Of a stretch of DNA of 14,367 nt, positions 4,198 to 8,087 are shown in pieces. Positions within the stretch are counted from its first letter, which is position 1, and each line of letters begins with the position of its first letter. This stretch comes from Lachnospiraceae bacterium (GTDB lineage Bacteria > Bacillota > Clostridia > Lachnospirales > Lachnospiraceae). The notes beneath the pieces were generated by a model. It saw nothing but the letters and a program-made list of their open reading frames with translations, ran no database searches and was not told the DNA's origin. Position numbers and translations under genes: made by a program. The stretch is from NCBI GenBank assembly GCA_003488445.1, contig DNLO01000223.1, positions 1-14,367 on the forward strand, given 5' to 3'.

Positions 4198-4503
4198 ATG
4201 CTTAATATCGATGTGAAGAGTGAAGGTAGGGAAGCAGTACTTACGCTTGGAGGAAAGCTGGATGCGAATACTGCATCAGAGCTGAAGCAGAAGCTTGAAG
4301 AGCTGCCTGAAGAGGTGAAGGATATCAGTCTCGATCTGTCCGGTCTTGCCTATACTTCCTCGGCCGGGCTCAGGCTTTTCATGCAGTATCACAATAAGCT
4401 TGGCAAAGCAGGAGGGAAGCTGGTGCTCATGCACCCCAATGAGATGATCTGTGAGATCTTCGACGATACAGGCATGACCGGCTGCCTTAATATAGAGAAA
4501 TAG
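4198..4503 (+). CDS. STAS-domain anti-sigma-factor antagonist (SpoIIAA/RsbV-like)
   Basis: This 101-residue single-domain STAS protein has alternating strands and helices: an N-terminal strand pair, GKLDANTASELKQKLEE as first helix, ISLDLSGLAYTSSAGLRL around the regulatory serine, and a C-terminal helix with MHPNEMICEIFDDTGM. S54 or S55 in YTSSAGLR occupies the place phosphorylated by SpoIIAB/RsbW-type kinases; the usual Asp before the serines (DSSG) is Thr and the Gly after is Ala, a variant I regard as common in gut Clostridia. In the known scheme the unphosphorylated protein binds the kinase and frees its target, and a PP2C enzyme removes the phosphate. The PP2C gene starts 2 nt downstream, which fits that role. 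A strong AAAGGAG site (4182-4188) lies 9 nt before ATG. No kinase gene is adjacent. Confidence 0.9.
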   Translation: MLNIDVKSEGREAVLTLGGKLDANTASELKQKLEELPEEVKDISLDLSGLAYTSSAGLRLFMQYHNKLGKAGGKLVLMHPNEMICEIFDDTGMTGCLNIEK

Positions 4504-4505
4504 CA

Positions 4506-6356
4506 TTGTTTCGGGACAACAGCACCAAAAAAGTAGGCACGATCATCAAGAGATGGCTGTTCATAGTCATCTTCGCGGCCTTTGTAATTTCCATTGCAGG
4601 CATCATTGCCGTGCAGTCTTTCTATCAGCAGTTATATTCTTTTTCTCTCATCGAAGAGGGTGTGAAGGATGTCAGCGAGGATGTGGACCAGACCTTCAGT
4701 GACTTGTTGTATGACTACACCCATGATTTTACCGAGCTGATAGAAGACAACAAATCCAACATGAAAGATCCGGCCTGGCTTTCGGATCTGGTGGATATGA
4801 ACTCCGCATTCGTATCCGAGATCAATATCGTGGATAATCAGGGCTTTATCACGAACTCCTCCATGCCCGAATACATAGGCTGGGACATGAACTCCGAAGA
4901 GCAGTCGGCAGAGTTCATGTGTCTTTTGAACGGCAGGGAATACTACGAGCAGGACATGCGCGGTAATGCATATGATGAGAGTATACAGATGGTCTATGCA
5001 GGAGCGAGATTCTCTGACGGGAGCGGGTTCCTCCAACTGGGAATAAGCAAGGAAAACTATATCAGCTACCTGCAGGATACTCTGGCCTCTGAAGTGCGTA
5101 ACAGACGCATAGGCGTGAAAGGCATGTATGTGATAGTCGACAGTGACCACAGGATAATCGGGAGCACCGATGATGCCTTTAACGGACATACCGTTGTCAG
5201 AACAGAGATACTCGCGAACAGGGAGGGTGAATTCAGGCGTTCCAGAATTAACCTCTTCGATCAGGACTGCTATGTGGTATCCACTCTGAAGAACGGATAT
5301 TATTTCGTAGGCGGATTCCCCGTCTCGGAGGCAGGCCATTTCGGCAGGATCGACAAGATACTCATCATCACGGTGAACATTCTGATGCTTCTATGCATCT
5401 TCGGTATCCTGTCAAGACTTCTGAACACTCACGTAGTAAAGGGTATAGAGGATATAAACGATTCCCTGACAAAGATCACCGGCGGAGACCTGGATGAGAA
5501 GGCTGAGGTCACGAACTCACTTGAATTTACAGAGCTCTCCCGTGGTATTAATTCCACGGTGGACAGGCTGAAGCAGATGATAGCAGAGGCCGATGCGAGG
5601 ATAGACGAGGAGCTGGCCATGGCCAACAACATACAGCAGGCCTCACTTCCGGACTGCAGCAGGGAATTCCGTGAAAATGAACGCTTCAGTCTGTATGCGA
5701 GTATGGAGACCGCCAAGACCGTAGGGGGAGATTTCTATGATTTTTACAAGCTCTCGGATGATCTTCTGGCAGTGACCATAGCCGATGTGTCCGACAAGGG
5801 CATACCTGCCGCGATGTTCATGATGCGGGCAAAGGCCGTGATGAAGCGAATGGCGGAAGAAGGCAGATCCGTAGAGGATATGGCAGCTGCAGCTAACAGA
5901 GAGCTGTGGGAGAATAATGAAGGAAACATGTTCGTCACCGTATGGACCGGCATCCTGGATCTGAGGACGGGAGTGATGAGATATGTCCATGCAGGACATA
6001 CCTGCCCGGTGCTGTTCGGTATAGACGATCCGGTATTCGTGAAGCAGAAGAGGGATCTGATGCTTGGGGCCATGCCGGAGGTGACCTACCACGGACAGGA
6101 GATCAGACTGCGTCACGGAGAGGCTCTGTTCCTGTATACCGACGGAGTGACGGAGGCTGAAGAGGCAGGTGGGAAGCTGTACGGAAATGAAAGACTTACG
6201 TCCCTTCTTGCAGCGAAGGATAAAGAGCTGAAAAAAGACGGAGCAAAGGAATACTGCAGGGAGATATGCGATGCGGTGATATCGGATGTACATGAATACA
6301 GCAAAGACGTGCCCCAGTCGGACGATATCACGGTGCTGTGTCTCAAATATCGTTGA
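4506..6356 (+). CDS. Membrane sensor PP2C (SpoIIE-type) serine phosphatase with HAMP domain
   Basis: This 616-residue protein dephosphorylates phospho-STAS proteins, presumably the one encoded just upstream. In order: TM1 ~17-37; an extracytoplasmic sensor ~40-280 with two PAS/Cache-like strands (INIVDNQGFI ~107-115 and MYVIVDSDHRII ~207-218), suggesting a dCache-type sensor; TM2 ~285-305; HAMP ~306-360; a helical linker with ANNIQQASLP; and the PP2C domain ~395-616. Metal ligands appear intact: D409 (GGDFYD), D427 and D430 (ADVSDKG), D546 (YTDGVTEA) and D606/D607 (SDDITV). The start is UUG, 2 nt after the STAS stop, with only a weak AGAG at 4494-4497, so translation is probably coupled and the membrane enzyme kept less abundant than its substrate. 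The ligand of the sensor is unknown. Confidence 0.9.
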   Translation: MFRDNSTKKVGTIIKRWLFIVIFAAFVISIAGIIAVQSFYQQLYSFSLIEEGVKDVSEDVDQTFSDLLYDYTHDFTELIEDNKSNMKDPAWLSDLVDMNSAFVSEINIVDNQGFITNSSMPEYIGWDMNSEEQSAEFMCLLNGREYYEQDMRGNAYDESIQMVYAGARFSDGSGFLQLGISKENYISYLQDTLASEVRNRRIGVKGMYVIVDSDHRIIGSTDDAFNGHTVVRTEILANREGEFRRSRINLFDQDCYVVSTLKNGYYFVGGFPVSEAGHFGRIDKILIITVNILMLLCIFGILSRLLNTHVVKGIEDINDSLTKITGGDLDEKAEVTNSLEFTELSRGINSTVDRLKQMIAEADARIDEELAMANNIQQASLPDCSREFRENERFSLYASMETAKTVGGDFYDFYKLSDDLLAVTIADVSDKGIPAAMFMMRAKAVMKRMAEEGRSVEDMAAAANRELWENNEGNMFVTVWTGILDLRTGVMRYVHAGHTCPVLFGIDDPVFVKQKRDLMLGAMPEVTYHGQEIRLRHGEALFLYTDGVTEAEEAGGKLYGNERLTSLLAAKDKELKKDGAKEYCREICDAVISDVHEYSKDVPQSDDITVLCLKYR

Positions 6357-6435: not shown

Positions 6436-6711
6436 ATGAGCGAAAACACAAAGAAAAAGCTGAAAGAAGAGGAACTCGAAGGCATCGCCGGCGGTATGAT
6501 ATATCATAACGAAGATCTGTCTGATCCGTTACGTGATCCCAACAGAACCTGGGAGGTCATCAACAACAACAACGGAAAGGTGATGGGGCAGTTCATGACT
6601 CAGGGCGAAGCGTGTGAATTCGCAGGTCACTTCGGAAAGGATTCGTACAACAAAATGATCATCACAAAGGAAATACTGGACAACCTGCGCAAGTTCCCTC
6701 ATTCCACATGA
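6436..6711 (+). CDS. Small protein with bacteriocin-type double-glycine leader
   Basis: This 91-residue protein begins with a charged helical stretch ending in E-E-E-L-E-G-I-A-G-G (residues 11-20), the double-glycine leader type that C39-peptidase ABC exporters cut after GG. The predicted mature part is 71 residues, has one cysteine (C60), and reads as a small folded unit: a strand pair (TWEVINNNNGKVMGQF), a helix (GEACEFAGHFG) and a strand/helix (KMIITKEILDNLRK). That looks less like a lanthipeptide or thiopeptide core, since Cys is scarce, and more like a secreted small domain. AAGGAGGT at 6422-6429, 6 nt before ATG, is the strongest ribosome binding site in the window. It follows the PP2C gene by 79 bases and converges on the channel gene, 5 nt away. 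No exporter, immunity or modification gene is in the window. Function unknown. Confidence 0.8.
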   Translation: MSENTKKKLKEEELEGIAGGMIYHNEDLSDPLRDPNRTWEVINNNNGKVMGQFMTQGEACEFAGHFGKDSYNKMIITKEILDNLRKFPHST

Positions 6712-6715
6712 TCCT

Positions 6716-6732
6716 GTCAGCCCTTCGCTGAC
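6716..6732. other. Perfect 6-bp hairpin at the convergent gene junction
   Basis: GTCAGC (6716-6721), loop CCTTC, GCTGAC (6727-6732). It overlaps the stop and last codons of the minus-strand channel gene and starts 4 bases past the plus-strand stop. Neither strand has a following T tract, so it is not a standard intrinsic terminator, but it is the only structure available at this 5-nt junction. Confidence 0.4.
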
Positions 6733-8087
6733 TTGACTACGATGAATTCGACTCTCTCGCGGTCTATACTTACCTTGATATCACTAGCCATTGAGGTAAG
6801 TATGGACTCGCCGAGGTCTTTTTGATTGACCCCGCCTTCATTCATACTCCACTCATAGTTCTCTTTTTTGCTGAGACCTGTGGTCATCACTTCCCATATC
6901 TTGCCGGAGAAGCCCTGTATGGCCTCATTCTTTCCGGTGGATGACAGATTCAGCAGCTTCTTGTATTCATCACTTCCCACACTGGCATCGAACCGGACAT
7001 GTATCCTGTATTTCAGACCGCTTCCCTCTATCCAGAAGTCAGTCTTCACATTCTCCACTATAGCCCCGACCACTCCAAGAGCCTCCTCACACATGATCTC
7101 CAGCTGCATCTTGCTGTTCTCATCCAGCCTCTGTCTTAAGGCATAGCGTTCAGCCACCTTGATAGCCTCGCCGGCATGGGCTGCAGATGCAGGGATCTTT
7201 ACGGTGTTCGTACGGTAAAGACGTTTGGAGGGAAGAGTCTTTTTCTTTTCGGAGGCCGTCCGCTCATCAATTTCTTCCTTTGAGCCTTCGTATTCAACGA
7301 CATTGACATAGTTGTACGGGATCTCTATTCCGTTCTCTCTGAACGCATTATTTACCCGCAGGTTGATATCCGTGATGGCTGTATAGCTGTTAGTATTCTT
7401 TGTGACCCATATGGTGGTATCCAGAAGCAGAGCACTTTCGGCAAATTTAAGAAAATATACAGGACCTGAGTCTTCCACGATCCCATTATTCTCCACGCTC
7501 AGCGTATAAGGACTCTCCACGACACAGTCCCTTATTATATCCATGGCTTTCTGTACATCGGTATCATAGCTTACGGAATACTGAAGATGGATGCCGCGCC
7601 TGTCGGGCATGCCATAGCTGGTGTTGGTGAGTATCTTGCCGTTCAGCTCACTGTTGGGGACTATTATCCTCAGGTCATCATATATCCGGATCACTATATG
7701 CCTCAGGGTGATGTCTTCCACTATGCCGGGCTCCTGTCCCTCTATGACGATCCTGTCGCCTATATCGAAAGGCTTGTGGATACTTATCAGAAATCCGCAT
7801 ACGATATCGGATATGGCCGGCTGCGCCGCGAAACCTACAATGGCTACCAGAAGAGCAGAGCCCTGCAGGAACATGCGTCTGATATCCATGTTGGGATTCA
7901 TGACGGCGAGGATCTCCGCAAGACACATCGTGATCACGATAAGCCGCAAAAGATGAAGCAGGTATCTTTGATGCAGCTTTTTGTGCTTTTTTCTCTTTTT
8001 GCTGAGCATTATCCCTGTCACGACGGTGAAAGCGACAGCGATCACTATAAACAGTATTATGCTCTTTACATCACCAGGACTCTTCAT
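6717..8087 (-). CDS. MscS-family mechanosensitive channel with C-terminal HATPase-like domain
   Basis: The N-terminal ~262 residues form an MscS channel: TM1 ~8-28, TM2 ~43-63, a pore helix ~76-103 (GSALLVAIVGFAAQPAISD), then the beta domain with PFDIGD 106-111, IVPNSELNG 142-150 and the alpha/beta vestibule. Such channels release solutes during hypo-osmotic shock. After a charged linker (265-292) comes a ~165-residue domain unlike the usual MscS tail. It can be aligned by eye to SpoIIAB: VKIPAS strand, long helices, MCEEALGVV 332-340 (N-box position, Asn replaced by Val339), a strand pair, D367-A-S-V-G371 (DxGxG position) and LGESILTSMASDIKVS ending 440 (GxG plus final helix). ATP binding is doubtful without the Asn. 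ATG 8087 has GGAGAG with a 6-nt spacer. Channel call firm; C-terminal call inferred. Confidence 0.88.
   Translation of the reverse strand: MKSPGDVKSIILFIVIAVAFTVVTGIMLSKKRKKHKKLHQRYLLHLLRLIVITMCLAEILAVMNPNMDIRRMFLQGSALLVAIVGFAAQPAISDIVCGFLISIHKPFDIGDRIVIEGQEPGIVEDITLRHIVIRIYDDLRIIVPNSELNGKILTNTSYGMPDRRGIHLQYSVSYDTDVQKAMDIIRDCVVESPYTLSVENNGIVEDSGPVYFLKFAESALLLDTTIWVTKNTNSYTAITDINLRVNNAFRENGIEIPYNYVNVVEYEGSKEEIDERTASEKKKTLPSKRLYRTNTVKIPASAAHAGEAIKVAERYALRQRLDENSKMQLEIMCEEALGVVGAIVENVKTDFWIEGSGLKYRIHVRFDASVGSDEYKKLLNLSSTGKNEAIQGFSGKIWEVMTTGLSKKENYEWSMNEGGVNQKDLGESILTSMASDIKVSIDRERVEFIVVKSAKG

Follow-up and report, generated by a model that had tools for sequence, protein, structure and literature searches.

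A 14,367-nucleotide stretch of contig DNLO01000223.1 from a Lachnospiraceae bacterium (assembly GCA_003488445.1), analysed over its full length and hereafter called the window, carries on its reverse strand a gene (6717–8087) for a 456-residue protein which, by reading frame, Pfam and alignment, comprises an MscS-type channel followed by a C-terminal domain of predicted SpoIIAB/RsbW fold. By its sequence the product is a member of the MscS channel superfamily: the MscS beta domain (residues 92–157, 7617–7814; PF00924, E 1e-13) and the MscS C-terminal domain (residues 168–256, 7320–7586; PF21082, E 7e-11) both scored above the Pfam cut-offs, and the best PDB sequence matches of the protein were MscS channels, all lying within residues ~10–275. 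A linker delimited by alignment (residues ~257–289, 7221–7319), variable in its middle and lysine-rich near its end, leads to the tail domain (residues ~290–456 and the stop codon, 6717–7220), which was defined from the AlphaFold2 model, PDB matches and family comparison; all of these features lie on the reverse strand. Residues ~285–456, in which the tail occupies the last ~167 residues of the protein, gave no match to any Pfam or NCBIfam model.

With residues 280–456 as the query, 28 further proteins were retrieved, each with at least one MscS domain and with identities of 39–98%, under length limits that shut out short free-standing relatives. Since the tail is kept in these 28 further proteins it is a real conserved domain rather than a chance resemblance, and a preliminary description of this DNA was correct in regarding it as unlike a normal MscS tail. 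Twenty-five positions were invariant across the 29-row alignment of MscS tails, namely P286, R289, R292, Q319, E334, E335, W352, G355, S356, G357, Y360, H363 and E374 in the first part and G385, N387, E388, A389, G404, W413, E427, S428, I429, L430, I437 and V439 in the second. Several of these fall in GKNEA (residues 385–389, 6921–6935, reverse strand), a conserved loop of the lid region in which K386 is Lys or Arg in all 29 rows. In a wider alignment of 108 domains N387 was kept in 96, while W413 (101/108) and S428 (98/108) were retained across free, channel-fused and hydrolase-fused forms.

A search of PDB sequences with the tail, either singly or as a profile, returned no matches, and sequence alone therefore fails to place it. 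The AlphaFold2 model of the tail was confident (predicted local distance difference test score of 84) and its best PDB fold matches were SpoIIAB, RsbW, the SigF anti-sigma factor UsfX and SiaB, with histidine kinases far lower; a separate prediction for a free-standing relative again placed SpoIIAB, RsbW, UsfX and SiaB ahead of other GHKL proteins. The modelled elements run in the order strand, helix, N-box helix, strand pair, lid helices and final strand pair, which is the order that had been proposed by eye against SpoIIAB, and the enlarged lid noted at the same time is present in the model, although it is its least certain part. Neither a fold outside GHKL nor a profile match to another known MscS tail emerged. 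These models support the prediction that the tail has a SpoIIAB-type GHKL fold.

Profile comparison by hhalign pointed in the same direction. Against an RsbW profile, a profile of free proteins (n = 53) reached a probability of 74% (score 37.2), and the MscS tails (n = 18) reached 12.7% with a score of 25.7, where the top of 20 shuffled profiles scored 19.1. When all 108 domains were compared with 30 RsbW domains the probability was 67% (score 34.3; 15 decoy families scored 17.1 or less), and the subsets gave 35% for 69 free, 58% for 29 MscS and 46% for 8 hydrolase domains. The hhalign values are suggestive on their own and become convincing once the fold match is added, and the earlier proposal of a SpoIIAB/RsbW-like domain is upheld by both. 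Neither PF13581 nor the NCBIfam anti-sigma models matched the channel or any of seven free-standing relatives.

Residues of the N-box, G1 and G2 motifs serve in the binding of adenosine triphosphate (ATP) and Mg. The N-box remnant of the tail (7071–7088, reverse strand) retains EE334-335, which hhalign aligns with the N-box Glu of RsbW and which is kept in 108/108 domains. The Asn position, V339 in the channel, is occupied by Met (64), Ile (14), Leu (13), Val (8), Phe (8) or Thr (1) and by Asn in 0/108 domains, so that the replacement recognised by eye holds for the whole alignment. DxGxG was found in 0/108 domains at the aligned columns and GGxG in 0/108 at any place; DxGxG occurred elsewhere in 10/108 sequences, one of which (L017; loci are designated by L numbers) has it two residues further along in the loop of the aligned columns. 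RsbW domains encoded at the same loci and matched at E below 1e-15 (n = 30) served as controls and had the Asn in 29/30, the G1 Asp in 30/30 and GGLG in 29/30. The preliminary assignment of D367-A-S-V-G371 to the G1 position did not survive, as position 367 is Asp in only 2/23 MscS tails and 12/36 free domains, and this candidate remnant was dropped because its columns are not conserved as DxGxG. A degenerate kinase domain fits the absence of the Asn, of DxGxG at the aligned columns and of GGxG, and the tail is probably a pseudo-kinase. It probably works like a component of partner switching, but motif and profile speak against classing it with the RsbW/SpoIIAB kinases.

The domain is not confined to channels. 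A scan of genome contigs with the single tail sequence found no relatives, and with the tail alignment as the query it found 29 loci. A profile search retrieved 84 proteins, mostly of ~175–210 residues without a Pfam domain and some of the short ones possibly fragments, of which 3 had an MscS domain; the few named matches came from Lachnospiraceae, Aristaeellaceae and other Clostridia. Counting the window's own genome, the domain was present in 41/48 genomes of the genus, 22/299 of the family sample, 31/391 of the class sample and 4/398 of the phylum sample. One domain match in the class sample (G530) was dropped, as the profile check of L148 did not confirm it. After removal of one duplicate from 116 tail genes, 115 with their surroundings were available, comprising 70 free, 34 MscS-fused (the window's included) and 11 other genes, the last being 2 tandem duplications (L074, L084) and 9 alpha/beta hydrolase fusions (L089, L140–L147). 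Pfam identified the hydrolase of L141 (Abhydrolase_3, E 2.1e-45), and those of the other eight fusions were assigned by eye. The tail family, for which neither Pfam nor NCBIfam has a name, occurs in Clostridia in free, MscS-fused or hydrolase-fused form. In a tree built before later loci were added, 22 of 23 MscS-fused tails formed one clade (support 0.74) with L088 apart, and a single origin of the fusion is not certain from these sequences. The hydrolase fusions have the pseudo-RsbW domain in front of the hydrolase, and in L147 the same frame extends into a region that appears AMP-ligase-like by eye. Both tandem double-domain proteins (L074, 5974–7173; L084, 6247–7446) have a STAS gene adjoining.

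At distances of up to 250 bp, 38 of the 70 free tail genes had a same-strand STAS neighbour and 7 had an RsbW domain; when each gene was placed at random within its own locus, STAS neighbours numbered 1.7 on average and never more than 7 in 1000 trials. In 46/70, at least one same-strand STAS, RsbW or SpoIIE gene lay no further than 3 kb away. The arrangements include RsbW–SpoIIE–STAS–tail in L033, where all three partner-switching genes accompany a free tail gene, RsbW–STAS–tail in L150 and L156, and a SpoIIE–RsbW fusion followed by the tail gene in L180, L183, L185 and L187. For the channel-fused genes, a row of STAS, MscS-tail and RsbW was found in 3/34 (L006, L015, L016), with canonical motifs in the RsbW proteins and no SpoIIE, and L088 has MscS-tail, tail and STAS in succession; the remaining 30/34 had no same-strand STAS, RsbW or SpoIIE within 3 kb. 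The SSAG motif was kept in 44/44 STAS places adjoining tail genes. An apparent STAS–tail fusion in L087 was dropped, its STAS match covering only 28 residues. Proteins of ~530–570 amino acids with STAS and RsbW domains were also observed near tail genes in L026 (5286–6962), L170 and L175.

These results support the predicted fold, the loss of ATP motifs, the family and, for many of its members, a setting among partner-switching genes, and on balance we lean towards the tail being a degenerate SpoIIAB/RsbW-fold docking module for a STAS protein that tunes the channel through an RsbW/PP2C switch. The tail would present a SpoIIAB-like surface without ATP chemistry. Phosphorylation of the STAS protein would fall to an active RsbW-type kinase, whose gene would lie at another place or in the part of the genome that the incomplete assembly lacks, and a PP2C phosphatase would reverse it. 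One form of STAS, by analogy the unphosphorylated one, would then dock on the tails beneath the cytoplasmic cage of MscS, which is heptameric, and docking may alter how much tension the channel needs to open or how likely it is to be open; STAS binding, the direction of control and the gating effect are what we infer from the predicted fold and these surroundings. As the domain also occurs free and before an alpha/beta hydrolase, it can be interpreted as a general adapter through which partner switching reaches various outputs. That pseudo-RsbW adapters let STAS switches control non-sigma targets, with an ion channel gated by partner switching as well as tension and a hydrolase of the same genus controlled likewise, is a tentative proposal to which we give slightly less than an even chance.

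Several observations weigh against STAS docking on the channel. Similarity to RsbW in sequence is weak, with the hhalign probabilities spread between 12.7% and 74% by subset, and 19/70 free genes, some of them near contig ends, had no STAS, RsbW or SpoIIE gene on either strand up to 3 kb away. No same-strand STAS gene lay within 250 bp of 31/34 MscS-fused genes, and the three rows in L006, L015 and L016 amount to one conserved locus because the flanking genes are common to all three. In the window itself, the STAS and SpoIIE genes lie on the strand opposite to the channel gene with another reading frame between, and in the flanking DNA fetched for the three best-scoring MscS-tail genes of the same genus (L129–L131) no STAS or SpoIIE gene was nearby; therefore the arrangement in the window alone proves nothing. 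The neighbourhoods by themselves do not tell STAS from RsbW or another protein as the partner.

The tail might instead pair with RsbW in mixed dimers of pseudo-kinase and kinase, such that the kinase is held or regulated by the channel and the switch takes tension on the channel as an input rather than acting on it as an output. SpoIIAB and RsbW act as dimers, and the three STAS–MscS-tail–RsbW rows and the 7/70 free genes with an adjacent RsbW domain, 4 of them with a SpoIIE–RsbW fusion directly before the tail, are consistent with such pairing; STAS adjacency is far commoner, however, and the hydrolase fusions suggest a role on the effector side, so that we consider RsbW pairing unlikely. More doubtful is an old fusion that serves only the assembly or stability of the channel and takes no part in partner switching. 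It would suit the 31/34 fused genes that are not beside a same-strand STAS gene, and the available part of PMC4560390 describes MscS subfamilies with other added domains and differing by additions at either end, but EE334-335, W413 and S428 are kept in free, channel-fused and hydrolase-fused forms alike, and the free forms have no channel to stabilise. Least probable is that the tail remains an active kinase, its nucleotide site being unusual, and phosphorylates STAS from the channel as SiaB does. The Asn and aligned G1 and G2 motifs, judged against RsbW domains, are absent from all 108 domains, and several loci have a gene for a canonical RsbW adjoining, so that no second kinase would be needed in them.

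Docking of STAS on the tail can be set against known systems. The SpoIIAB/RsbW kinases (HATPase_c_2, PF13581) share with the tail the predicted fold, the N-box Glu and, in relatives, adjoining STAS genes, whereas the tail has no PF13581 match, lacks the N-box Asn, G1 and G2, has a longer lid and is tied to a channel or hydrolase rather than to a sigma factor. The bCNG channels, in which an MscS core carries a cyclic-nucleotide-binding tail, likewise join an extra cytoplasmic regulatory domain to the core, but here the tail is a predicted pseudo-RsbW fold with an expected partner protein rather than a small ligand. SiaABCD of Pseudomonas aeruginosa resembles the proposed system in its non-sigma output, and SiaB is among the best fold matches of the tail; to our knowledge SiaD has no SpoIIAB-like domain. 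According to the available parts of the reports (PMC8457831, PMC7647112), SiaC switches on the diguanylate cyclase SiaD, an effect that is lost when SiaB phosphorylates SiaC. That system differs in having a DUF1987 protein, SiaC, and a diguanylate cyclase as its output. MATE–HATPase_c_2 fusions (L001, L079) also combine a membrane transport protein with an RsbW-like domain, but their HATPase_c_2 is recognised by Pfam and their transporter is MATE.

Partner switching, in the parts of the literature available, is known mainly for freeing sigma factors, with few enzyme outputs, and no report tying an MscS channel to it was found in the open-licence literature as judged by titles and abstract openings. 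If true, a STAS-docking channel domain would provide bacteria with a phosphorylation-controlled valve for ions or solutes, and would account for a domain that is blank in Pfam and NCBIfam across rumen and gut Clostridia. The available part of a STAS review notes that systems with unknown targets exist (PMC8256260), and for sets of STAS, RsbW and SpoIIE without a known target the tail offers a testable receptor.

The possible partner genes of the window lie on the forward strand and converge on the channel gene. The STAS protein (4198–4503; PF01740 3.8e-15, TIGR00377 above cut-off) is of the anti-anti-sigma type and retains the SSAG motif, in which S55 is, by likeness to SpoIIAA, the candidate phospho-Ser; it is followed directly by a SpoIIE/PP2C phosphatase with a HAMP domain (4506–6356; PF07228 2.9e-44, PF00672 4.9e-6). 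The pair was dropped as a conserved partner locus of the channel gene, as L129–L131 lack it in the DNA fetched. The genome assembly of the window is 61.8% complete and contains 4 STAS, 4 SpoIIE and 4 HATPase_c_2 places, of which one HATPase_c_2 place scored above cut-off and three below; a short RsbW gene was not found in this assembly and may lie in the missing part. The place above cut-off belongs to a protein (L001, 100–2754) in which MATE is fused to an RsbW-like HATPase_c_2 and an HD-CE domain. In L079 (2074–3837) another fusion of MATE to an RsbW-like HATPase_c_2 shares its surroundings with a tail gene and STAS, and similar frames of ~590–610 amino acids close to the tail genes of L155, L157, L169 and L175 look like MATE by eye.

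Between the SpoIIE and MscS genes of the window, a forward-strand open reading frame of 91 amino acids (6436–6711) has no Pfam or NCBIfam match and appears bacteriocin-like, with a double-glycine-type leader, EELEGIAGG, recognised by eye. NHLP bacteriocin export genes adjoin a STAS–tail–RsbW locus in L027 (8601–9092) and an MscS-tail locus in L067 (5733–8168), the latter with TIGR03796 above cut-off and both with partial TIGR03794 matches below cut-off, and partner switching may be linked with peptide export.
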